A stretch of DNA of 64,000 nucleotides from contig JACPFR010000050.1 in NCBI GenBank assembly GCA_016182905.1, positions 1 to 64,000 of the forward strand, given 5' to 3'. Positions 11,614 through 36,932 of this stretch are shown here, one piece after another; the first letter of the stretch is position 1; every line of letters starts with the position of its first letter. Under the pieces are notes generated by a model, which had not been told where the DNA came from, searched no databases, and saw only the letters and a list, made by a program, of their open reading frames with translations. The position numbers and the translations under genes were made by a program. The stretch is from Elusimicrobiota bacterium (lineage in GTDB: Bacteria; Elusimicrobiota; Elusimicrobia; UBA1565; UBA9628).

Positions 11614-12332
11614 CGCTCGGGCCGGTCGAGGTCTCGACCTACGGCGTGCTCGTCGCGCTCGGCTGGTTCCTGGGCGTGCGCTGGCTCGTCTCCCGCCGCG
11701 CGGACATGGGCCTGAGCGAGAACCAGATCTGGGACATCGTCTACTGGGTGTTCGGCGGCGCCTTCGTCGGCGGCAAGATCATGTACTTCCTCGTGACGCC
11801 CGGCTCGTTCGCGTTCACGGTCGAGGCCCTGCGCTACGGCTTCGTGTTCTACGGCGGCCTGATCGGCGGCCTCGCGGCGGGGTTCTACCACGCCTGGAGG
11901 CGCGGGCTCCCGTTCCTCAAGCTCGCGGACTGGTGCATGACCGCGCTCGCGCTCGGACACGGCATCGGACGGTTCGGCTGCCTCGCCGCGGGCTGCTGCT
12001 ACGGCCGCCACACCGACCTGCCCTGGGGGATCTCCATGGCGGGCGACCCCTCCCGCCATCCGACCCAGGTGTACGAGGCGGTCCTGAATCTGGCCCTGTT
12101 CGGCGTCCTCGCCCGCTTCGTCCTGCCGCGGGTCGCGGACGAGCGCTGGCGGGAGGGCGCCGGCCTCGCGTCCTACATCATAGGCTACGCCGCCCTGCGC
12201 TTCGCCGTCGAGTTCCTGCGCGGCGACGACCGCGGCGCCTTCGTCCTCGGCCTGTCGCCGTCGCAGTGGGTCGCGCTCGCGGCCGCCGGGGCGACCTGCG
12301 CTGCCCTCGCTTCCCGGAGAAAACCCGCATGA
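11595..12332 (+). CDS. Lgt-like prolipoprotein diacylglyceryl transferase, copy 2
   Basis: A 245-residue membrane protein with the same fold. It has TLGPVEVSTYGVLVALGWFLG at the N-terminus, FYGGLIGG, the signature HGIGRFGCLAAGCCYGRHT, HPTQVYEA (shared with copy 1 as HPVQLYEA, a strongly conserved Lgt segment), and YAALRFAVEFLRGDDRG. It overlaps copy 1 at its start and the RluA-type gene at its end (ATGA), so three genes are translationally coupled. It is the more canonical of the pair. Confidence 0.85.
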   Translation: MLPVLLTLGPVEVSTYGVLVALGWFLGVRWLVSRRADMGLSENQIWDIVYWVFGGAFVGGKIMYFLVTPGSFAFTVEALRYGFVFYGGLIGGLAAGFYHAWRRGLPFLKLADWCMTALALGHGIGRFGCLAAGCCYGRHTDLPWGISMAGDPSRHPTQVYEAVLNLALFGVLARFVLPRVADERWREGAGLASYIIGYAALRFAVEFLRGDDRGAFVLGLSPSQWVALAAAGATCAALASRRKPA

Positions 12333-13240
12333 AGAAACGCCTGATCGTCGAGAACGACCTGCCCCGCCTGGACGCGTTCCTCGCCAAGAACCTCACCGGC
12401 TTCAGCCGGGCCTTCCTCAAGGACATGATCGAGCGCGGCATGGTCACGGTGGACGGCAAGGTCGTCGACGCCGACGAGCCCATCCTCGAGGGGCAGAAGA
12501 TCGAGGTCGAGCTGCCGGAGACGGCTTCCGCCTCCTCCGACGATTTCGAGTCCTGGGTGATCTTCGAGGACAAGCGCCTGCTCGTCCTCAATAAGCCCAC
12601 GGGCCTGCTGATGCATCCGTTAGGGGACTCGTGGCTGAAAAGCCCCGAGGCCGCGCGCGCCGGGCGCGAGACCAACCTCGCCGCCGAGCTCCAGGTGCAT
12701 CGTCCCGCGATCCTGAAGGCGGGCACGCCCCGCTGCGGCATCGTCCACCGCCTCGACCGCCCGACGAGCGGCGTGCTCCTCGTCGCGAAGGACCCGGAGA
12801 CCTACGCGGCGATCACCGACATGTTCAAGGAGCGGTACATGGACAAGACCTACCGCGCGATCGTGCGCGGCGTCCCGCCGCCGACCTCGCGCGTGTCGGC
12901 GCCCATCGGCCGCGAGCCGGGCCAGCGCCAGATCGTCGTCACGCCGCTGGGCAAGCCCGCCGAGACCGGCTTCCGCGTCGTCACCAAGAAGAAGGCCGCC
13001 TGCCTCGTCGAGGCGAAGCCGCTCACCGGCCGCACCCATCAGATCCGCGCCCACCTGGCCCATATCGGCCATCCCGTGATGGGGGACAGCGAGTTCGACC
13101 GCAAGGGCGTGCCCGCCGCGCCCCGCCTGATGCTGCACGCCTATCGCATCGCCTTCGAGCACCCGTTCACCGGGCGCCCGGCGCGGTTCGAGGCGCCGCC
13201 GCCCGCCGACTTCCAGAAGTTCTGGAAGTCCATGCGCTGA
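12329..13240 (+). CDS. RluA-family pseudouridine synthase
   Basis: A 303-residue RNA pseudouridine synthase. An N-terminal S4 RNA-binding domain (~1-65, LDAFLAKNLTGFSRAFLKDMIERGMVTVDG in outline) precedes the catalytic domain with HRLDRPTSGVLLVAK (catalytic Asp in the RLD motif), KTYRAIVRG, and LTGRTHQIRAHLAHIGHPVMGD. It isomerises uridine in rRNA or tRNA; the exact site (RluC- or RluD-like) is not determinable. The ATG overlaps the stop of the preceding Lgt gene. Confidence 0.9.
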   Translation: MKKRLIVENDLPRLDAFLAKNLTGFSRAFLKDMIERGMVTVDGKVVDADEPILEGQKIEVELPETASASSDDFESWVIFEDKRLLVLNKPTGLLMHPLGDSWLKSPEAARAGRETNLAAELQVHRPAILKAGTPRCGIVHRLDRPTSGVLLVAKDPETYAAITDMFKERYMDKTYRAIVRGVPPPTSRVSAPIGREPGQRQIVVTPLGKPAETGFRVVTKKKAACLVEAKPLTGRTHQIRAHLAHIGHPVMGDSEFDRKGVPAAPRLMLHAYRIAFEHPFTGRPARFEAPPPADFQKFWKSMR

Positions 13241-26530: not shown

Positions 26531-27472
26531 ATGACCGCGCCGCTCGACGTCGTCACCGGGGCCTTCAGCTATTCGGGGGGATATATCGCCGAGCGCCTGC
26601 TGGCCGCGGGGCGCCGCGTCGCGACGTTGACCGCCCATCCCGACCGCCCGTCCCCGCTCCAGGGCCGGATCGCGGCCCATCCGCTCGACTTCGAGCGCCC
26701 GGAGCGGCTCGCCGAGGCCTTGCGGGGCGTCGATACGCTTTACAACAACTACTGGGTCCGCTTCGCGCACGGCGGGATGACGCACGAGAAGGCCGTGCGC
26801 AACAGCGAGGTCCTGTTCCAGGCGGCCGCCAAGGCGGGGGTGAGGCGCATCGTCCATGTGAGCATCGCCAACGCGGACCCCGAATCCGACCTCCCTTATT
26901 ATCGGGGAAAGGGGCAGGTCGAGCAGGCGCTGAAGGCCGCCGGCCCCTCCTACGCGATCCTCGGCCCGACCGTGCTGTTCGGCGGGCACGACGTCCTCAT
27001 CAACAACATCGCCTGGCTGCTGCGCCGGTTCCCGGCGTTCGCGGTGATCGGCGACGGGCGCTACCCGATCCAGCCCGTCGCGGTCGAGGATCTGGCCGAC
27101 CTCTGCGTCGCCGCAGGGGCGGATGCGGCGAACACGAAGGCGGACGCGGTCGGTCCCGAGGTCTACGCCTACGGGGATCTCGTCCGCCTCATCGCGGAGC
27201 GGGTAGGCTCCCGGGCGATGATCTTCCGGGTCGGTCCGGGCGTGGGCCTGGCGCTCGCGAAGGTCCTCGGAGCCCTGAAGGGCGACGTCCTACTCACGCA
27301 GGAGGAGGTCGACGGTCTCACCCGCGGCCTGCTGAAGTCGAAGGCGCCGGCGACGGGCCGCCGCTCCTTCCGCGAATGGCTGGACGCGGCGGGCGGGGAC
27401 ATCGGCCGCGAGTACCGCAACGAGGTGAGGCGTCATTTCGAGGGAGGGAAGACCGAATGGGCACGGAACTGA
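26531..27472 (+). CDS. NmrA/complex-I-39-kDa-like NAD(P)-binding protein
   Basis: A 313-residue atypical short-chain dehydrogenase. The N-terminal nucleotide-binding motif is VVTGAFSYSGGYIAERLL (GxxxxxG type), followed by GVDTLYNNYWVRF, VRRIVHVSIANADPESDLPYYRGKGQVEQAL, where the YxxxK catalytic pair appears as Tyr-Arg-Gly-Lys (YRGK). The pattern resembles NDUFA9/NmrA-type proteins acting as reductases or sensors. Its 3' end overlaps the GbsR-like gene by 16 nt, so the regulator probably controls it. Confidence 0.8.
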   Translation: MTAPLDVVTGAFSYSGGYIAERLLAAGRRVATLTAHPDRPSPLQGRIAAHPLDFERPERLAEALRGVDTLYNNYWVRFAHGGMTHEKAVRNSEVLFQAAAKAGVRRIVHVSIANADPESDLPYYRGKGQVEQALKAAGPSYAILGPTVLFGGHDVLINNIAWLLRRFPAFAVIGDGRYPIQPVAVEDLADLCVAAGADAANTKADAVGPEVYAYGDLVRLIAERVGSRAMIFRVGPGVGLALAKVLGALKGDVLLTQEEVDGLTRGLLKSKAPATGRRSFREWLDAAGGDIGREYRNEVRRHFEGGKTEWARN

Positions 27473-27972
27473 AGGCCGCGAAGGAGAGCTTCGTCGAATC
27501 CTGGGGGCAGATGGGCGGCGCCTGGGGCATCAACAAGACGATGGCGCGCATGCACGCCTTGCTCATGATCTCCGAGAAGCCGCTCACGGCCGACGAGATC
27601 ATGGAGTCCCTGGCCGTCAGCCGGGGCAATGCCAGCATGAACCTCCGGTCCCTCGTGGACTGGGGGCTGGTCCGGCGGACCTCCCTCCCCCGGGACCGGA
27701 AGGAGTACTTCTCCTGCGAGAAGGATGCGTGGACGATGTGCTGCCGCATCGCAAGGGAGCGCAAGAAGAGGGAAATAGAGCCTGTGATCTCAGCGATTGA
27801 TGAGTGCCTGAAGCAGGCCGGCACCGACAAAGAGGCCGCCGCCTTCCGCAAGAAGCTCAACGAGCTGCTGGAACTCGTCCGCCTGCTCGATTTCGTGCTC
27901 GGAAAGGTCGGAAACCAGGAAAAAGCGGCCGTTCTGCCGAAAGTACTGACCTTACTTAAGGCGATGGCTTAG
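27457..27972 (+). CDS. GbsR/MarR-family transcriptional regulator
   Basis: A 171-residue winged-helix protein of the GbsR type. It has FVESWGQMGGAWGINKTMARMHALLMISEKPLTADEIMESLAVSRGNASMNLRSLVDWGLVRR in outline: dimer helix, helix-turn-helix with SRGNASMNLRSL as recognition helix, and a wing. A long C-terminal helix pair (~100-171) follows. GbsR-type proteins sense osmolytes such as choline in Bacillus; the ligand here is unknown. It is translated from within the 3' end of the NmrA-like gene and lies just before the cofactor operon, which however has its own promoter. Confidence 0.85.
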   Translation: MGTELKAAKESFVESWGQMGGAWGINKTMARMHALLMISEKPLTADEIMESLAVSRGNASMNLRSLVDWGLVRRTSLPRDRKEYFSCEKDAWTMCCRIARERKKREIEPVISAIDECLKQAGTDKEAAAFRKKLNELLELVRLLDFVLGKVGNQEKAAVLPKVLTLLKAMA

Positions 27973-27994: not shown

Positions 27995-28942
27995 ATGCCG
28001 ATTTCCCTTTTGAAGGTGGAAGATTCGTTGACGCGGGTCCGCTCCGGCCTCGAAAGCCGGGCGCGGCGCATCGAGGGCCGCGTCGGCCAGGAGCTGGCGA
28101 GCCACATCGCCCGGCCGGGCAAGATGCTGCGCTCCCGCTTCGCTTTGCTGCTGTCCGGGGCCCTGGGCGTCGACCTGGAGAAGGCCGAGGGCGTCGCCCG
28201 GGCTATGGAGCTGGTCCACAACGCCAGCCTCCTCCATGACGACTGCGTGGACGAGGCCGAGCTTCGCCGCGGCCATCCCACCCCGAACAAGATCTTCGGC
28301 ACCACCATCGGCCTGCTCCTGGGAGACCTGGCCTTCGCGCAGGGCCTCGAGGAGGCCATCGACATCTCCCCGAACGCGCCCAAGCTGCTGGTCACCACCG
28401 TGCGCGAGATGACGGTCGGCGAGCTGCAGGAAGAGTTTTTGAAGGGATCCATACAGGTGACCGTTGATGCTTATATGGGCGTGGCCTCCCGCAAGACCGG
28501 CGCTTTGTTCGAGTGGGCCGGCGCGGTCCTCTCCGAGCTCTCGCCTTTCCCGCACGAGCAAAGCGACCCGCCCCGCCTGGCCTGCGCGGCCGGCATCCTG
28601 CTCCAGATCGTCGACGACATTCATGATTATACGTTGACGGAACGAGTCTCCGGGAAAGACGAAGCCCAGGACTTGGCGAACCGGAAATTGACGCTGCCGT
28701 GCATCTACGCCATCTCCGACAAAGGCACCCGCGACGAGTTTCTGTCGTTGTGGAACGAGGCGAAGCCCGACGCGGCGAAGATCGCCAAGCTCCTGAAGGA
28801 CCGCGGCCATATCCAGAAGACGCGCGAGAAGGGCCGCGAGATAACCGATTCGATGCTCGCCATGATCAAAAAATTGCCGTGCAAGGCCGAGGCGGCGGAG
28901 CTCGGCTTCTTCGTCGAAGTCATGGCGAAGAGGGAGTTTTGA
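27995..28942 (+). CDS. trans-polyprenyl diphosphate synthase
   Basis: A 315-residue E-prenyl diphosphate synthase that elongates allylic diphosphates with isopentenyl diphosphate. It has PGKMLRSRF (substrate-binding Lys/Arg), the first Asp-rich motif DDCVDEAELRRG (residues 82-93) and the second, DDIHD (207-211). The absence of bulky aromatic residues just before the first motif (NASLLHDD) suggests a long-chain product. It normally supplies side chains for quinones. Here it is the first gene of a seven-gene operon that includes a UbiA prenyltransferase and radical SAM genes, and the next gene begins directly after its stop codon. Confidence 0.9.
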   Translation: MPISLLKVEDSLTRVRSGLESRARRIEGRVGQELASHIARPGKMLRSRFALLLSGALGVDLEKAEGVARAMELVHNASLLHDDCVDEAELRRGHPTPNKIFGTTIGLLLGDLAFAQGLEEAIDISPNAPKLLVTTVREMTVGELQEEFLKGSIQVTVDAYMGVASRKTGALFEWAGAVLSELSPFPHEQSDPPRLACAAGILLQIVDDIHDYTLTERVSGKDEAQDLANRKLTLPCIYAISDKGTRDEFLSLWNEAKPDAAKIAKLLKDRGHIQKTREKGREITDSMLAMIKKLPCKAEAAELGFFVEVMAKREF

Positions 28943-29386
28943 ATGTCGTACGAAGCCCTGCTGCGCAAGGCGTGGAAAAGCGGGGACTTCGTCGTCTCTG
29001 AGACGGAGGCGGCCCAGGCCGACTTCGCCGCTGACGCGGCAAGTGTCTTAAAAGTTCGCCGTGAGATGGAAGAAATCGCTAGGCGTGAAGTGTGGGATGC
29101 TAACTCCTGCCTCGTCGCCCACAGAGAGGGAATCATGAAGCTTGCTCCATTCGTGAAGTTCCGGGAAGAGAAGTTCGGCGCGGTGCTCTTCGAGACGCGC
29201 TCCGAGAAGGTGTACACGCTGAGCCCCACGGGCGCGGCGGTCGTGCGCGAGGTCATCGCGGGTGCTGAGTCCGGCAACCTCGTCGCCAAGCTCAAGGAGA
29301 AGTTCGAGGACCCGTCGGGCAAGATGGCGCAGGAGGCGGAATCGTTCCTCGCCCAGCTGAAGGAAAAGGGATTGATCGTCGAATAA
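28943..29386 (+). CDS. PqqD-like peptide-chaperone protein with N-terminal extension
   Basis: A 147-residue protein. Residues ~65-147 match the PqqD-type RiPP recognition fold: FVKFREEKFGAVLFETRSEKVYTLSPTGAAVVREV, then a helical end with FLAQLKEKGLIVE. PqqD proteins bind a precursor peptide and present it to a radical SAM enzyme. Residues 1-64 are an unusual helical extension without known homology (ALLRKAWKSGDFVV…). The gene abuts the polyprenyl synthase stop codon and ends 1 nt before the first radical SAM gene. Confidence 0.8.
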   Translation: MSYEALLRKAWKSGDFVVSETEAAQADFAADAASVLKVRREMEEIARREVWDANSCLVAHREGIMKLAPFVKFREEKFGAVLFETRSEKVYTLSPTGAAVVREVIAGAESGNLVAKLKEKFEDPSGKMAQEAESFLAQLKEKGLIVE

Positions 29387-29387
29387 C

Positions 29388-30344
29388 ATGGAAGACAAAG
29401 AGACGTCGGACCTCGGCGCGCCCCTGTACGTCGCCTGGCAGATCACCAACGAGTGCAACCTCGCCTGCCTCCACTGCATCGAGGAGAGCGGCCCGGGCAA
29501 GGCGTTCAAGGACGAGCTGACCACCGAGCAGGCCTACGGCATCATCGACCAGCTCGTGAAGTCCGAGGTCCCGTACGTCTCCTTCTCCGGCGGCGAGCCC
29601 ATGGTGCGCCCCGACTTCTTCGGCATGGTGGAGCGCATCACCAAGGGCGGCGTCGGCCTCAAGATCGAGACGAACGGTCATTATCTGACCAAAGAGAACT
29701 GTAAGAAACTGAAGGACCTCGGCATCAAGGCCGTGCAGGTCTCCCTCGACGGCGCCAGCAACGCGTCCTTCAACAAGATGCGCGTCCACGGCCGCTTCGA
29801 GGAGGCCCTGAACGGGATCAGGAACCTGCGCGAGGCGGGGATCCCCATCGAGATCAACTTCGTTCCGGCCCGCTTCAATATCAAGGAGATCGGGGCGGCC
29901 GTCGACCTCGCCCACGAGATCGGCGCCTACTCGTTCTACACCGGCAAGCTGATGTTCACGGGCAACGCGGTGCGCACCTGGGGCATCACCGCCCCCGACG
30001 AGGCGGACTACCCCGAGTTCTTCGCCACCCTCAAGGCCAAGACCGACCAGTACAAGGGCAAGATGCGCGTGTACTACCACGAGATGGGCCTGCTCGAGGC
30101 GCTGCGCTACCGCCTGCTCAACCCGGCGGCGCTGTTCATCATCCTGCCCAACGGCAAGGTCAAGCTCATCAACGCGCTCCCGTTCACCTGCGGCGACCTG
30201 AAGACCGACACGCTCGGCCAGGTGTGGGCCCAGTTCCAGAAGGCGTGGCAGAGCCCGCGCGTCTCGGCGTTCATCGACCGCCTGGCCGAGGACCCGAACA
30301 TCGTCTCCCGCCTTCACCAGTGGGAGGAGGTCGGCGCCGCATGA
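29388..30344 (+). CDS. radical SAM protein 1 of the peptide-cofactor operon
   Basis: A 318-residue radical SAM enzyme of the PqqE/MftC/SPASM lineage. The 4Fe-4S site is C23xxxC27LHC30, followed by EESGPGKA; FSGGEPMVRPDF supplies the GGE(P) SAM-binding motif; later IETNGH and VSLDGASNASFNKMR are typical of peptide-modifying members. The C-terminal region keeps the hairpin of a twitch/SPASM domain (ILPNGKVKLINALPFTCGDLKTDTLGQVW) but retains only one cysteine there. An auxiliary Fe-S cluster with the usual ligands is therefore doubtful. It follows the PqqD-like gene and overlaps the UbiA gene by ATGA. Confidence 0.88.
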   Translation: MEDKETSDLGAPLYVAWQITNECNLACLHCIEESGPGKAFKDELTTEQAYGIIDQLVKSEVPYVSFSGGEPMVRPDFFGMVERITKGGVGLKIETNGHYLTKENCKKLKDLGIKAVQVSLDGASNASFNKMRVHGRFEEALNGIRNLREAGIPIEINFVPARFNIKEIGAAVDLAHEIGAYSFYTGKLMFTGNAVRTWGITAPDEADYPEFFATLKAKTDQYKGKMRVYYHEMGLLEALRYRLLNPAALFIILPNGKVKLINALPFTCGDLKTDTLGQVWAQFQKAWQSPRVSAFIDRLAEDPNIVSRLHQWEEVGAA

Positions 30345-31258
30345 CCGACGTCTTCGCCGCCCCGCACGCCCCCGCCGAGCAGACCCTCGTGATGAAGGTC
30401 GCCTCGGTGGTTCGCTACAGGTTCTTCCTGTACGCGGGGCTGCTGCCGTATTTCCTGGGCGGCGCGTGGGCGTACGGAGTCGAGAAGTCATTCAACCCCG
30501 GCGTATTCTTGCTGGGGCTGTTCGGGATATTCCTGTCGGTCGTGGGCGTGGAAAGCTTCAACGAGTACTTCGACGCCAAGATGGGCACCGACCGCGTCTT
30601 CAACCCCGACGCCGAGGAGTACATCCCTGAGTGGATGTTCTCCCTCGGCGTGACCGCCTTCGCCGTCGCCGCCGCCATCGGTTTTTATCTGGCGTGGGAA
30701 GGCGGCTGGCCCATCGTCCTTTATACGCTCCTCGGCGGCGCGGCCGCGGTCTGGTACGTCGGGCCGCCCATCCGCTGGGTGTACCGGGGCTTGGGGGAGA
30801 CCGTCATCGGGCTTTCGTACGGGCCGTGGATGGTCCTGGGTTCGCTTCACCTCAACACTCATCGATTCTCATGGGGAGCTCTCCTCGCGTCGCTCGTGCC
30901 CGGTCTTCTGATTACGGCGCTGGCGACGGTCAACAACATCCCCGATTTCCATCAAGATCGTCTCGTCGGCAAGAAGAATCTGGTGGTCCGCCTCGGACGG
31001 AAGAACGGAAGGGTGCTGTACCTGGCGCTGTCCGCCGTCGGACTTCTCATCATCCCGCTCGGCGTCGTTCTTGGCGTCTTCCCCAGGCTGACGGTCCTCG
31101 CCGCGTTGGCCGGCTTACCTTTGTGGTTCATGTCGTTGAAGGCCGGTGAATCGACGTGGGACACGCCCCGCCTGTTCATGCCCGCCATCCGCTCCATCGT
31201 GCAGTGCTACGCGCTGACGACGGCGCTGTTCGCGGTCTTCATGGGGCTCGGCCGATGA
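30341..31258 (+). CDS. UbiA-family prenyltransferase
   Basis: A 305-residue integral membrane protein with eight or nine helices and both Mg-diphosphate motifs: NEYFDAKMGTD (N74, D78, D84) and NNIPDFHQD (D202, D206). UbiA/MenA enzymes attach polyprenyl chains to aromatic rings. No other quinone biosynthesis gene lies nearby; instead it sits between two radical SAM genes, overlapping both by 4 nt (ATGA). The natural reading is that it prenylates a peptide-derived aromatic product, using the chain made by the synthase at the head of the operon. MenA-like function in an ordinary quinone pathway is the alternative. Confidence 0.9.
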   Translation: MTDVFAAPHAPAEQTLVMKVASVVRYRFFLYAGLLPYFLGGAWAYGVEKSFNPGVFLLGLFGIFLSVVGVESFNEYFDAKMGTDRVFNPDAEEYIPEWMFSLGVTAFAVAAAIGFYLAWEGGWPIVLYTLLGGAAAVWYVGPPIRWVYRGLGETVIGLSYGPWMVLGSLHLNTHRFSWGALLASLVPGLLITALATVNNIPDFHQDRLVGKKNLVVRLGRKNGRVLYLALSAVGLLIIPLGVVLGVFPRLTVLAALAGLPLWFMSLKAGESTWDTPRLFMPAIRSIVQCYALTTALFAVFMGLGR

Positions 31259-32214
31259 GGATCGAGGCTTTCTCGTCGCCGACGATGGTCACCTGGCAGC
31301 TGACCCGCGACTGCGACCTGGCCTGCCTGCACTGCTGCACCGACTCCGCCCCGGGCAAGGCCCTCCCCGGCGAATTGACGCGGGAGCAGGCCTTGAAGCT
31401 GTCGGCCGAGATCGTCGCCGCGGGCGTGCCCTACGCGATGATCGTCGGCGGGGAGCCGACGCTCGTTCCCCACTTCGCCGAGGTGTGCAAGACGCTGTCC
31501 GACGGCGGGGTCCTCCTCAAGATCGAGACCAACGGCCACAATTTCGACGTGAACACGCTCAAAGGCCTCGCTATCCGCTCGGTCCAGATATCCTTGGACG
31601 GCGCCTCGCAGGCGGTGTACGGCCGCCAGCGAGTGAACGGGAATCTGGAGAAAGCGGCGGCGGCCTGCCGCGCCGTCGTCGCCGCGGGGCTTCCGCTCGA
31701 GGTCACCTTCGCCCCGACGACCTTGAACGTCTTCGAGGCCGAGGCCGTCATCGACCTCGCCGCCGAGCTCGGCGCCTTCCGCTTCAACACCGGACAGCTC
31801 ATGCGCCTGGGCACCGCCGCCCGCCTCTGGGACAAGCTCGAGCCGTCCAAGGACGATTACGCGGCGTTCTTGCGCGTGCTCGAGCGCAAGGAGCGGGATT
31901 ACGCCGGGAAGATGGAGCTGTGCTACAAGCCCTTCTCGCTGGCCGAGGAGATGGCGCACCGGGTTTTCCAGCCCTCGGGCACATTACTGTTACTTCCCGA
32001 CGGGCGAGTGAAGGTCGTGGCACCCCTGCCCTTTACATGCGCCGACCTCAAATCGCAAACTTTCCTGGAAGCCTGGGAGGCGTACAAGAGCGCCTGGGCC
32101 GACTCTCGCGTGAAAAGGGCTCTTGAACGCCTCGCCGCCGAGCCGTCCGCGTCGGCGCAGGCGAACCAGTGGGTCGCGTTGGACGATTTGAAAGATATGC
32201 CGGTCGTGGTCTGA
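31255..32214 (+). CDS. radical SAM protein 2 of the peptide-cofactor operon
   Basis: A 319-residue paralogue of the 29388 and 32352 products. Fe-S motif C20xxxC24LHC27 with an extra Cys28, then TDSAPGKALPGELTREQA; SAM motif VGGEPTLVPHF; IETNGHNF; SLDGASQAVYGRQRV. The C-terminal hairpin LLPDGRVKVVAPLPFTCADLKSQTF has one cysteine, so the usual SPASM ligands are missing. It starts within the UbiA stop codon, and its stop precedes the peptide gene by 18 nt. Its distinct role among the three paralogues is unknown; one may modify and another cleave or oxidise the precursor. Confidence 0.87.
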   Translation: MRIEAFSSPTMVTWQLTRDCDLACLHCCTDSAPGKALPGELTREQALKLSAEIVAAGVPYAMIVGGEPTLVPHFAEVCKTLSDGGVLLKIETNGHNFDVNTLKGLAIRSVQISLDGASQAVYGRQRVNGNLEKAAAACRAVVAAGLPLEVTFAPTTLNVFEAEAVIDLAAELGAFRFNTGQLMRLGTAARLWDKLEPSKDDYAAFLRVLERKERDYAGKMELCYKPFSLAEEMAHRVFQPSGTLLLLPDGRVKVVAPLPFTCADLKSQTFLEAWEAYKSAWADSRVKRALERLAAEPSASAQANQWVALDDLKDMPVVV

Positions 32215-32232
32215 CCGGCAAACAGGAGTAAC

Positions 32233-32352
32233 ATGAACGACCAGAAAACCGTGACGGATGCCAAGGCCGAGCCGAAGCTCGCTTGGGAGACGCCCTCTCT
32301 CGAGGAAGTCTCTGAGCGCGTGATGGCCCAGCCCTACATCCGCTTCACCTGA
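32233..32352 (+). CDS. putative precursor peptide (39 residues)
   Basis: A short gene with a good ribosome-binding site (ACAGGAGTAAC before ATG). The product begins with a charged leader-like part (MNDQKTVTDAKAEPKL), then AWETPSLEE and ends VSERVMAQPYIRFT. A W-x-x-P-x-L leader segment and an aromatic residue near the C-terminus (Tyr35, with Phe38) recall PqqA- and MftA-type precursors, where tyrosine is the modified residue. The TGA overlaps the ATG of radical SAM gene 3 (TGATG), and the gene is embedded in an operon with a PqqD-like chaperone. I infer that it is the substrate; homology to a named precursor family is not established. Confidence 0.7.
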   Translation: MNDQKTVTDAKAEPKLAWETPSLEEVSERVMAQPYIRFT

Positions 32353-33314
32353 TGGACCGGAGAGGGGCGTCCGTGGGCGACTACGGCGCCCCTCTCTTTC
32401 TTGCCTGGCAGCTGAGCAACCGCTGCACGGGCCGCTGCCTGCACTGCTGCGAGGAGTCGGGGCCGGACAAGGCGTGGCCCGACGAGATGAACCGCGAGCA
32501 GGCGCTTTCGCTCACCCGGCAGATCGTCGAGAACGGCATCGCGTACGTCGCCTTCGGCGGCGGAGAACCCATGGGCAGCCCGTGGGCGATCGAGATATTC
32601 GAGACCCTCACGAAAGGCGGGGTCGAGATCAAGATCGAGACGAACGGATTGGATCTCGACGATAAGGCCTGCGATAAATTAAAAGAATTAAAGATAGCGT
32701 GTGTTCAGATCTCGATCGACGGCGCCACCGCGGCCGTCCACGAGAAGCTCAGGCCGGGCTCTGGTTACGCCCCCGCTTGGGCGGCGATCGACCGGCTTGT
32801 TGAGCGCGGGCTCGAACCCGAGTTGGTATTCATACCGACAAAAATAAATGTCCAGGACGCGGTGGCGGTCTATGAACAAGCCGCGCGGCGCGGCGTGCGC
32901 ACCTTCGTGACCGGTCCTATGATGCGCCTCGGCCGCGCCGCTCACGCGTGGGACACCTTGGCCTGCTCCGACGAGGACTGGAAGGAGGCCGTGATGGGCC
33001 TCAAGGCCGCGGCGGCCGCCTTGAAAGGCCCCAAGCTCGCGATCTATCCGTGGGGCATCCAGCAGGAGATGGTGACCCGCGCCGAGAGCCCCCAATCGAT
33101 GGTGCTCGTGGTCCCCAACGGCCGCGCCAAGCTGCTCAACGCTTTGCCGTTCGCCGTGGCTGACCTCAAGACGGAGACCTTGGCTTCCGCGTGGCCCAAG
33201 GTCGGAGCCGCCTGGAAGTCCAAGGAAGTGCAGGACTTCGTTCGCCGCGCCCAGACCGAGACCGACCTCCTCAAGCACGCCAACGAGTGCTGGGACGTGA
33301 AGGTCGCCGTCTAG
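32352..33314 (+). CDS. radical SAM protein 3 of the peptide-cofactor operon
   Basis: A 320-residue paralogue. The Fe-S motif is C25xxxC29LHC32 plus Cys33, then EESGPDKAWPDEMNREQA; SAM motif FGGGEPMGSPW; IETNGLDL; SIDGATAAVHEKLRPG. The C-terminal hairpin reads VVPNGRAKLLNALPFAVADLKTETL: the single cysteine kept by paralogues 1 and 2 is absent, so no auxiliary cluster is expected there. ATG overlaps the peptide stop, making it the enzyme most tightly coupled to the peptide and a good candidate for first modification. A hairpin at 33323-33342 follows. Confidence 0.87.
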   Translation: MDRRGASVGDYGAPLFLAWQLSNRCTGRCLHCCEESGPDKAWPDEMNREQALSLTRQIVENGIAYVAFGGGEPMGSPWAIEIFETLTKGGVEIKIETNGLDLDDKACDKLKELKIACVQISIDGATAAVHEKLRPGSGYAPAWAAIDRLVERGLEPELVFIPTKINVQDAVAVYEQAARRGVRTFVTGPMMRLGRAAHAWDTLACSDEDWKEAVMGLKAAAAALKGPKLAIYPWGIQQEMVTRAESPQSMVLVVPNGRAKLLNALPFAVADLKTETLASAWPKVGAAWKSKEVQDFVRRAQTETDLLKHANECWDVKVAV

Positions 33315-33416: not shown

Positions 33417-33422
33417 ATGGTC

Positions 33423-34670
33423 ATGCAAAGAACCCTCGCGGCGTTCGTCGCGGTTCTGCTTCTCGTTTCCCCGGCGTTCGCTCAGGTCCGCGTCGCGACG
33501 CCCATCGTACCCGTCGCGCGGGGCCCCGTCGTCAACGCCATCAATCTCCAGCTCGCCCCGCTGACCGCAGCCCTGTCCGGGCCCTCCGCCTCTCCGACGC
33601 TCGGGCTCACCGCCGCGTTCCAGGCCCAGGTCGCGCCCGCGCCCGTCGTGGCGGCCTCGCCCGCCGCGTTCGCCGCCCGCTCCGCCGTGATCGCCGCGCT
33701 GGCCGCGCCCAAGACCGAGCTGCCCGCCCTCGTGAAGTCCCTGCGCGAGGCGGGGGGCAGGAAGGCCGAGAAGGCCGCCGTGTCCCTCGAGAAGATCGGG
33801 GAGGCTCTGGCCGCCGCCAAGCCCTCCGAGCGCAAGGCCCTCGCCGCCGAGGCCGCCGCGCTCAACGCCCGCTTCGACGGCGCCGCCGCCGCCCCCGGGG
33901 AGGCCGTGGACCTGTCGCTCGTCCCGACGAACGATGAGGACGGCCTGTCCGCCAAGAAGGCCGGCAAGAAGCTCAAGAAGGAGGTCGGGCAGGTCAACGA
34001 GCTCGAGGACATCCTGGCCGCGGCCAAGACCCAGGCCGTGCTCGTCGTCGTGCAGGGCATGGACACCGCCGGCAAGGACGGCGTGATCAAGCACGGCATG
34101 ACCGGCCTCAACCCCGCCTTCGTGCGCGTCGCCGCCTTCAAGAAGCCCTCCGCCGAGGAGGCCGCTCAGGACTTCCTCGAGCGCATCAAAAAAGAGGTGC
34201 CGAAGCCCGGCGTGATCGGCGTGTTCAACCGCTCCCATTACGAGGACATCATCGTGCCGGCGGTGTGGGGCACCCACGACGCGAAGACCGTCGAGGAGCG
34301 CTACGCCCGCATCAACGCCTTCGAGCTGGAGCTGGCGCGCTCGGGCGTGAAGGTGGTGAAGATATTCCTCCACGTGTCGAAGGACGTGCAGCGCGAGCGT
34401 CTGCAGCGGCGGATCGACCGGCCGGAGAAGAACTGGAAGTTCTCGGCGTCGGACCTGGAGACGCGCAAGCGCTGGGACGACCTGCAGAAGGCCTTCGGCT
34501 CGATCCTCGCCCGCACGAGCACCTGGTACGCGCCGTGGAACGTGATCCCGGCCGACGACAAGCCCCGCCGCGACCTCGCCTTCGCGAGGATCCTCCGCAA
34601 GACCTTGCAGCGCATGGGGCTCGCCTATCCCGAGTCGCCCGACCTGAAGGGCGTCAAGATCCCGAAGTAG
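33423..34670 (+). CDS. PPK2-family polyphosphate kinase with signal peptide
   Basis: A ~415-residue protein. Residues 1-21 form a Sec signal peptide (MQRTLAAFVAVLLLVSPAFAQ in outline). Residues ~22-165 are Ala/Pro/Leu-rich, and the last ~245 residues are a complete PPK2 domain. The domain shows the Walker A GMDTAGKDG, FNRSHYEDIIVP (Walker B region), a lid with RRIDRPEKNWKFSASDLE, and WYVIPADDK-like NVIPADDKPRRDLAFARI. PPK2 enzymes exchange phosphate between polyphosphate and nucleoside di- or monophosphates, normally in the cytoplasm. Export would be unusual, since nucleotides are scarce outside. Start at 33423 rather than 33417 is inferred from the promoter position. Confidence 0.87.
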   Translation: MQRTLAAFVAVLLLVSPAFAQVRVATPIVPVARGPVVNAINLQLAPLTAALSGPSASPTLGLTAAFQAQVAPAPVVAASPAAFAARSAVIAALAAPKTELPALVKSLREAGGRKAEKAAVSLEKIGEALAAAKPSERKALAAEAAALNARFDGAAAAPGEAVDLSLVPTNDEDGLSAKKAGKKLKKEVGQVNELEDILAAAKTQAVLVVVQGMDTAGKDGVIKHGMTGLNPAFVRVAAFKKPSAEEAAQDFLERIKKEVPKPGVIGVFNRSHYEDIIVPAVWGTHDAKTVEERYARINAFELELARSGVKVVKIFLHVSKDVQRERLQRRIDRPEKNWKFSASDLETRKRWDDLQKAFGSILARTSTWYAPWNVIPADDKPRRDLAFARILRKTLQRMGLAYPESPDLKGVKIPK

Positions 34671-35195: not shown

Positions 35196-36932
35196 CTAGG
35201 CGGTGCCTGAATTCGTGTCCCCGCCGATTAATAGTGCTTCTAGAGATAAGTCCTCATCAAGATCGTATCGGGTCGCAAGAAATTCTTGCGACTGTCCCGA
35301 AGAAAAGCCGGACTGAAGAGCGTTTATCTCATCGAAATAATCAATCGAAAAATGGGATCGAGGCTTAAGTCTTCTGCTGGCAAGAGCTAGCAGGCGGCGG
35401 TCTTGTTCTTTTCCCGCATTTATCGGGTCATCCTCAGAGTATGCGATTACCCCTGCCGTGATTAAAGTCGAAAGCGCTGCAATATTAGTGGAGGTCGGAA
35501 CTGCCATTTTCCCGCCCGTCATTCGTATAACTCCGAGTCTGCGAGCGACGGAGCAGAATGCAGCAACGGGCGCTCCTGGAAAGTGAAGTAAGGGGCCCGC
35601 ATCCTTCGTTATGACACTTTCAAAAAGGGCTTGAGTTTCTGACAGTTCAGGGTCGGATTTGACGATAGGCAGAAAAATGGGGAGTTCGTTGGTGGGTGTA
35701 ATGTAAAACAGACGGCTAAGTAGATAGCGCTTCCGTTGTAATTGCCATCGACGCATCATCGGCGAAAACGTTTCAGTTTCAGAAAATACATCCTTAAGTT
35801 GATCGGCTAACCGTGCTCTTAATCGACGAATATTGTGTTGAAAATCCTTCGGTCCAAATGTTTCCGCGGTGGTGGTATCAATTAGTCCATTTGCCATGAG
35901 GACGTGAAACCATCGCCTCACTCGTCCTGATGTGGAGCGATCCCGAACGCGATTGATGGGGAGGAGAACCCCTTCATCATCGCACACTTTTCCGAATTCG
36001 CCAATGGTGTCGGGCTTGAGGGCGCACGCTAGCGTTGTGCGGGTGAGGAGGTCTTCAAAACTGTCCGTGGTGTATTCAAACTGTGGGCAGTGAGTAATCC
36101 ATGCGGACGAAGATATAACGTCTGTTTTGTCCTCGTTCAGCTTAAAGCCAGCGACGGATACTTTCTCTGCTAATTCCGCAAGAACAGCTTTGGCATTATC
36201 TTCATCTGTGATAACGATTATGTCGTCCACGTAGCGGAAATAGTGGTTTGGGTATTTGGCGCAAAAGTGCGCGTCCACATCCTCAAGCGCGAGATTCGCA
36301 AGAATGTGACTGGTCGGTGGAGCAATAGGTAACCCAGAATCGGACGGCGCGGTTAGGAATAATTCCAAGTGTTCGCGAATGGAAGATTTGCTTTCTCCGA
36401 GGTCTGCCCTCTTCATTGCACGAATCTGTTCAGCCAATCGCGTTCTATCTATGTTGGGATAGAAGCGCTGGATGTCGGCAACAATCACAACCTTGTCTTC
36501 GCTGCCGATCAAGCGCTCAGTAATCTCCCGATTACGTTGGGCGTAGCCCTTCATGTAATGCTCGAAAATCCTCGGACTATTTGCCCTGGGCCAGCGGTAG
36601 CTGTAGATGTGATTCCGATTGTTGAAGCGGGGCGCCGTTCGAAGTTCTTCCAGAATGTCGGTTTCGATTAAGGCGGAGATTGGGCTGGAGGCCGAGAATT
36701 CCCGAATATCTGAGCCGCCCGTCTTGTTCCAGCCTTTAAACCGAGGGAAAATTAAAGAACGAATGTTAGTTCGGGACTGGCGCTTGCGGCCAATCGCCAA
36801 GTTGAGCCATTTGCCGTCCGCGTGAACCGTCGAAGATTCCGCAACGTAGCGAATTCCCAGATAAGTCTCGAGATGATAGGGGCGCCAATAATTTAAAGCG
36901 CGGACGCATAACGTCTTGGCCGCGATTGTCAT
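35196..36932 (-). CDS. reverse transcriptase of a two-gene cassette
   Basis: A 578-residue RNA-directed DNA polymerase. Motif A is VVIVADIQRFYPNID (Asp153), motif B GLPIAPPTSHILANLALEDVD (~200-220), the catalytic YVDD lies at 234-237 (YFRYVDDIIVIT), motif D is GFKLNEDKTD. There is no group II intron maturase X domain or HNH domain. The ~300 residues after the palm are helical and unassigned, as in the defence-associated 'unknown group'/Abi-type RTs. Base composition is far lower in GC (about half) than the neighbours. ATG overlaps the stop of the methyltransferase-like gene (ATGA). A phage-defence role is inferred; the RT subtype cannot be assigned by eye. Confidence 0.88.
   Translation of the reverse strand: MTIAAKTLCVRALNYWRPYHLETYLGIRYVAESSTVHADGKWLNLAIGRKRQSRTNIRSLIFPRFKGWNKTGGSDIREFSASSPISALIETDILEELRTAPRFNNRNHIYSYRWPRANSPRIFEHYMKGYAQRNREITERLIGSEDKVVIVADIQRFYPNIDRTRLAEQIRAMKRADLGESKSSIREHLELFLTAPSDSGLPIAPPTSHILANLALEDVDAHFCAKYPNHYFRYVDDIIVITDEDNAKAVLAELAEKVSVAGFKLNEDKTDVISSSAWITHCPQFEYTTDSFEDLLTRTTLACALKPDTIGEFGKVCDDEGVLLPINRVRDRSTSGRVRRWFHVLMANGLIDTTTAETFGPKDFQHNIRRLRARLADQLKDVFSETETFSPMMRRWQLQRKRYLLSRLFYITPTNELPIFLPIVKSDPELSETQALFESVITKDAGPLLHFPGAPVAAFCSVARRLGVIRMTGGKMAVPTSTNIAALSTLITAGVIAYSEDDPINAGKEQDRRLLALASRRLKPRSHFSIDYFDEINALQSGFSSGQSQEFLATRYDLDEDLSLEALLIGGDTNSGTA

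Follow-up and report, generated by a model that had tools for sequence, protein, structure and literature searches.

A conserved operon of Elusimicrobiota and Proteobacteria that may convert a ribosomal peptide into a polyprenylated redox cofactor

The redox cofactors pyrroloquinoline quinone (PQQ) and mycofactocin are derived from peptides, and neither has an isoprenoid tail. The known prenylated respiratory quinones contain a ring that comes from chorismate or tyrosine metabolism, and in the prenylated ribosomally synthesized and post-translationally modified peptides (RiPPs; ComX/ComQ and the cyanobactin prenyltransferases) an isoprenoid is joined to a ribosomal peptide of variable core by soluble ComQ or ABBA-type enzymes. 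The 64,000 nucleotide window analysed here (contig JACPFR010000050.1, positions 1–64,000) comes from a 3.98 Mb, 97% complete Elusimicrobiota genome whose nearest named relatives are also Elusimicrobiota, and it contains an operon of seven genes that encode a polyprenyl diphosphate synthase, a PqqD-like protein, three radical S-adenosylmethionine (SAM) proteins, a UbiA-superfamily prenyltransferase and a 39-residue peptide. Comparison of this operon with its homologues makes it rather probable that it turns the ribosomal peptide into one fixed polyprenylated molecule, most likely a quinone-type membrane redox cofactor. An earlier note on this DNA knew of no described pathway that combines a peptide, a peptide-recognition protein, radical SAM enzymes and a UbiA enzyme, and searches of NCBIfam and of the literature, which did not extend to subscription papers or preprints, turned up none either.

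All seven genes are on the + strand, and the arrangement, coordinates and junctions given in the earlier note are borne out by the sequence. The first gene (27995–28942; PF00348, 145 bits) encodes a long-chain type polyprenyl diphosphate synthase with the DDxxD motifs HDDCVD and DDIHD, and is followed with no gap by the gene for the PqqD-like protein (28943–29386; PF05402, 41.8 bits, residues 80–145), which resembles the RiPP recognition elements (RREs). One nucleotide further on is radical SAM protein 1 (rSAM1, 29388–30344; PF04055, 94.8 bits; CNLACLHC), whose gene shares an ATGA overlap with that of the MenA/UBIAD1-like UbiA prenyltransferase (30341–31258; PF01040, 81 bits), and the latter overlaps rSAM2 (31255–32214; PF04055, 59 bits; CDLACLHC) in the same way. 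After an 18-nt gap the precursor peptide, MNDQKTVTDAKAEPKLAWETPSLEEVSERVMAQPYIRFT, is encoded at 32233–32352 with AGGAG before its ATG; its core MAQPYIRFT lies at 32323–32349, and a TGATG overlap joins it to rSAM3 (32352–33314; PF04055, 83.5 bits; CTGRCLHC). Pfam thus matches each of the families first named for the six larger genes, and in the PqqD-like protein, where the family is right, the PqqD fold is confined to the C-terminal half, from about residue 65.

The operon is like the mycofactocin system (MftA–F) in having a short ribosomal precursor with a fixed C-terminal core and a PqqD-type chaperone, and MftC is the best match of rSAM2 and rSAM3. Unlike that system it has three radical SAM proteins and another core sequence, it lacks the SPASM cluster set and the MftE, MftD and MftF genes, and it adds a UbiA prenyltransferase and a polyprenyl synthase. 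The PqqD-like protein scores 25 bits with the MftB model TIGR03967 (cut-off 33 bits), rSAM1, rSAM2 and rSAM3 score 134.9, 94.3 and 92 bits with the MftC model TIGR03962 (cut-off 265 bits), and the C-terminal VY of MftA is missing, every core ending in YIRFT. With the PQQ system (PqqA–E) the operon shares the set of peptide, RRE and radical SAM enzyme, and PqqA, whose sequence was checked, has like the operon peptide a W..P motif and a tyrosine 14 residues past the proline and 4 residues before the end. Unlike PqqA, with its Glu-x3-Tyr, the peptide here has methionine, not glutamate, four residues before the tyrosine and matches no model, and the operon lacks PqqB and PqqC; the scores with the PqqD (20 of 46 bits) and PqqE (94 of 381 bits) models are both below cut-off. 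The lasso-peptide B1 proteins have the fold of the C-terminal domain of the PqqD-like protein and leaders with an aromatic..P motif, whereas this operon has neither a B2 protease nor a lasso cyclase and its NCBIfam score (38.5 against a cut-off of 70) is too low. The membrane UbiA enzyme and the invariant core set it apart from the prenylated RiPPs as well.

The peptide has no family match in Pfam and none in NCBIfam even at an E value of 10. It is found in every complete homologous operon examined, and in 61 occurrences, a tally preselected for MAQPYIRFT, there are 28 distinct tails (last 25 residues) and 29 distinct core DNA sequences, all ending in VMAQPYIRFT, which in the window starts one codon before the core, at 32320. 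Third-base changes occur at nearly all degenerate codons of the core DNA. A tblastn search with the whole peptide, which is independent of the core selection, found no complete operon with a different core, and the core pattern with one mismatch allowed was present in 45 of 97 relatives, in each case exactly (the reversed control gave 0). In a genome of another family of the class (G078) the core is identical even though rSAM1 and the PqqD-like protein are only 49% and 38% identical to those of the window. Leaders differ from one another both in length and in sequence; the part that can be aligned is W-x-x-P-x-[LMI]-[ED]-[ED]-V-[ST]-x-x, which is followed by VMAQPYIRFT and the stop codon, and in one Acidocella copy leucine replaces the tryptophan. 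Since the gene is present in every complete operon and its invariant C-terminus is maintained through synonymous codon changes, these comparisons identify it as a genuine gene and not a chance open reading frame. Judged by the same alignments, the invariant core is the behaviour of a cofactor precursor, unlike that of antimicrobial or signalling peptides, and because the product end is fixed a cofactor is favoured over a diversifying natural product. We note that one relative (G042) has a second, solitary precursor with a different leader and the VMAQPYIRFT end, KPEWETPVIDEVTDR (L149, 3585–3683, – strand); no operon genes were detected on its 4.6-kb contig.

A scan of the GTDB species genomes for rSAM1, which used six exact 8-residue words only, gave 38 loci, a lower bound, and the window proteins were mapped onto these and onto further genomes. 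The order PqqD–rSAM1–UbiA–rSAM2–peptide–rSAM3 is present in every sufficiently long locus, and the bearers are Elusimicrobiota and Alpha-, Beta- and Gammaproteobacteria: Acidocella, Acidiphilium, Azospirillaceae, Burkholderiales, Betaproteobacteria bacterium GR16-43, which has a complete chromosome with no metagenome-assembly label, and one gammaproteobacterium. (One bearer record named Bordetella parapertussis is a metagenome bin whose name is untrustworthy.) The neighbourhood co-occurrence of the PqqD-like and UbiA genes, proposed earlier as a check, is constant across the operons of both phyla; the polyprenyl synthase is part of the Elusimicrobiota operons only and is missing from those of Proteobacteria. 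In a tree rSAM1, rSAM2 and rSAM3 form three orthologue groups, each of which includes all seven Proteobacteria tested, so the triplication is old and the genes of the module travelled together. Of 299 genomes in the family to which the Acidiphilium bearer belongs, 1 has the module, and that is the bearer itself; the core pattern was absent from the viral contigs searched and the peptide from the plasmids searched. Two loci depart from the usual layout. In genome G049 the operon is split (L151): the polyprenyl synthase and a PqqD-like gene are followed by about 10 kb of other genes and then by a second PqqD-like gene and rSAM1–UbiA–rSAM2–peptide–rSAM3, the two PqqD-like genes being at 1468–1881 and 12266–12517. 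In one other Elusimicrobiota genome a gene for a 500-residue Fic-type-like protein (L070, 11060–12562, +; HPFADGNGR recognized by eye) lies between the peptide and rSAM3 genes.

The PqqD-like protein of the window has an N-terminal extension (residues 1–64), its conserved domain beginning near Met65, and most of the Proteobacteria versions are the domain alone. Its AlphaFold model matches the lasso-peptide B1 RREs with bound leader in the PDB, and also PqqD; on this modelled fold, the protein has a C-terminal RRE. An RRE-fold protein and a short precursor peptide in one operon, with conserved adjacency, are what is generally seen in RRE-dependent pathways. The CxxxCxxC motif is invariant in the 46 aligned rSAM1 orthologues and present in 98% of those of rSAM2 (45 aligned) and of rSAM3 (44 aligned). 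The SPASM tails of all three proteins are degenerate, which corrects the earlier account: the several C-terminal cluster-binding cysteines expected of a SPASM domain are in none of them. As rSAM1 and rSAM2 retain a single conserved tail cysteine each (Cys268 and Cys262, respectively; rSAM2 also has Cys223 in 82% of cases) and rSAM3 none, auxiliary clusters are probably absent.

The operon prenyltransferase has the UbiA domain and the two Asp-rich motifs of the superfamily, NEYFDxxxGTD and PDFHQDRLVGK, the first Asp of motif 1 being Glu (NEYFD), and residues N74, E75, D78, D84, D202 and D206 are invariant in 27 sequences. It is like MenA and UBIAD1 in that it carries their motifs and that UBIAD1 is its closest solved relative both by sequence and by fold, and unlike them in that it falls below all MenA cut-offs (its best NCBIfam models, at 112 of 264 and 75 of 102 bits) and is encoded in a genome with no dihydroxynaphthoate pathway; branches in the UbiA-superfamily tree are very long. 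Of the three UbiA-family proteins in the window's genome one is the operon's and the other two are CyoE heme O synthases, whose genes adjoin those for heme-copper oxidases; of its two PF00348 synthases one belongs to the operon. Nearly all of the eight Proteobacteria have, besides the operon UbiA, two or more UbiA-family proteins with stronger matches, identified by score as UbiA and CyoE, and these bearers have their own polyprenyl synthase for ubiquinone.

The respiratory equipment of these organisms bears on what the prenylated product might be. The window's genome encodes complex I in two operons and heme-copper oxidases in two clusters, and the check for a complete menaquinone pathway that the earlier note had proposed finds in it no MqnA or MqnD of the futalosine pathway (counted at E below 1e-20) and no MenD of the classical pathway above cut-off; because this head-group pathway is missing, the UbiA/synthase pair lies outside the known quinone routes. 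At the same threshold none of the 56 genomes examined in its order has MqnA or MqnD, and 21 genomes elsewhere in the class have strong matches; MenD reaches the cut-off in one genome only, outside the order. A relative assembled as a single contig (G011) has two complex I operons, no MqnA or MenD, and no UbiA-family proteins other than CyoE and the operon's UbiA. In a further operon-bearing relative (G031), of which 1.83 of 2.2 Mb (83%) was searched with the E. coli Men and Ubi proteins, MenC, MenD, MenF, UbiB, UbiC, UbiD, UbiE, UbiH, UbiI and UbiX match nothing in that part and MenB, MenE and UbiG match general relatives only, while the controls (most complex I subunits, oxidases, GyrA and PurF) were detected. 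An ordinary menaquinone or ubiquinone pathway is rejected on the basis of this search of 83% of the assembly together with the absence of MqnA, MqnD and MenD from the order. Among 97 genomes 47 have the operon, 21 have MqnA and none has both. Two or more polyprenyl synthases are encoded by 46 of the 47 operon genomes, 17 of the 21 MqnA genomes and 5 of the 29 genomes with neither; since the operon itself supplies one synthase, the informative figure is the last group, in which 24 of 29 lack a second synthase. We also note that seven genomes (G019, G021, G022, G024, G030, G034 and G057) have complex I and lack the operon, MqnA/MqnD and MenD above cut-off, G057 having only a weak (1e-8) MqnA/MqnD match, and that each encodes a single UbiA-family protein, except G019 with three, CyoE-like where identified.

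In the pathway we propose the PqqD-like protein would bind the leader through W-x-x-P-x-[L/M/I]-[E/D]-[E/D]-V, the three radical SAM enzymes would rebuild the invariant VMAQPYIRFT, with the tyrosine as the obvious ring donor, and cellular peptidases would free the product. The MenA-like UbiA would then add a long isoprenoid, which the operon's own synthase would supply or which, in Proteobacteria, would be shared with ubiquinone biosynthesis. Much of the earlier interpretation survives in this scheme, as the peptide is kept, UbiA is integral to the module and no known head-group pathway is present; the part that allowed a variable lipidated RiPP is unlikely given the invariant core. More tentatively, and at somewhat less than even chances, the product may serve these Elusimicrobiota as their main respiratory quinone and the Proteobacteria as an accessory one beside ubiquinone. 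The fullest form of this idea, slightly less likely again, is that a quinoid head group cut from the peptide and prenylated would shuttle electrons from complex I to the heme-copper oxidases in Elusimicrobiota and would have spread horizontally to Proteobacteria as a second quinone.

Several observations weigh against a peptide-derived quinone. Five genomes without the operon, MqnA or MenD (G019, G020, G021, G022 and G034) nonetheless encode complex I as well as heme-copper oxidases, and so does G057, of another family. Because such operon-free sisters are equipped to respire, a lack of known quinone pathways is not in itself an argument for the operon, and it is for this reason that the respiratory role is held only tentatively; either the sisters obtain or make another carrier, or respiration in the class is independent of the operon. 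The mutual exclusion of operon and MqnA tracks clades, which are not statistically independent, and no significance is claimed for it. There is no protease, oxidase or methyltransferase gene within the operon, and the loci compared have no conserved neighbour gene that points to a user of the cofactor. Homology of the peptide to PqqA was rejected, as the W..P motif accounts for their match in ungapped register and the similarity beyond it is not significant (p 0.02–0.10 with W..P fixed). Extracellular electron transfer was also considered as a function and rejected: the operon has genes for an MtrB/PioB porin and for decaheme-type cytochromes as neighbours in a betaproteobacterium (L064, 12270–15975, with a NapC/NirT cytochrome gene also nearby) and a gammaproteobacterium (L066, 13358–16689), and in these two loci only.

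The alternative that survives best, which we nevertheless regard as unlikely, is a non-redox prenylated peptide or peptide lipid, a signal, an antimicrobial or a structural molecule, whose core is crosslinked by the radical SAM enzymes and lipidated by UbiA. The same enzymes would do for such a product, among solved structures a lasso-type RRE comes closest in fold to the PqqD-like protein, and the missing protease suits it too, whereas signals and antimicrobials diversify and this core is identical across phyla, no conserved transporter or immunity gene is nearby, and the known UbiA enzymes have small aromatic rings, or else lipids, as their substrates. It is quite improbable that the radical SAM enzymes act on a prenylated non-peptide substrate with the peptide as mere scaffold or carrier: the best NCBIfam model for rSAM1 is indeed AhbD (heme-b synthase), followed by NirJ2 and then MftC, but none of these scores comes anywhere near its cut-off, the best model for rSAM2 and rSAM3 is MftC, again at far too low a score, and a scaffold would have no need of ten invariant C-terminal residues. 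Mere adjacency of a peptide pathway and an ordinary quinone-tail pair, which the earlier note would have accepted had homologous operons lacked the peptide, draws on the MenA-like character of UbiA and on the pair being otherwise the genome's only quinone-tail machinery, and is very improbable and largely refuted because the peptide is consistently kept, because in both phyla the UbiA gene is flanked by those of rSAM1 and rSAM2, even in Proteobacteria that already own a ubiquinone prenyltransferase, and because menaquinone head-group genes are missing from the genome and, general relatives aside, no E. coli Men or Ubi head-group enzyme was detected in the 83% of G031 searched.

A MarR-type regulator gene (27376–27972, +; PF12802) is directly upstream of the operon. 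It adjoins the operon in many, not all, of the Elusimicrobiota loci and is absent from those of Proteobacteria, so it is probably a regulator of the operon outside the core module. Downstream, at 33417–34670 (+), is a gene that also follows the operon in several close relatives; it encodes a PPK2-type polyphosphate kinase extended at its N-terminus by about 150 residues that are rich in Ala and resemble a signal peptide. At 35196–36932, on the opposite strand, is a defence-associated reverse transcriptase of the UG36 class (PADLOC RT_UG36, 401 bits).

The module thus probably makes a lipid-anchored cofactor that is new to description, and a direct test is feasible since one bearer, Betaproteobacteria bacterium GR16-43, is represented by a complete chromosome. 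To our knowledge no prenylated respiratory quinone has a ring derived from a ribosomal peptide. If the product is indeed a polyprenylated peptide-derived cofactor, it would join the so far separate worlds of peptide cofactors and prenylquinones, and it would account for how a lineage of aerobes equipped with complex I and terminal oxidases could do without menaquinone or ubiquinone genes.

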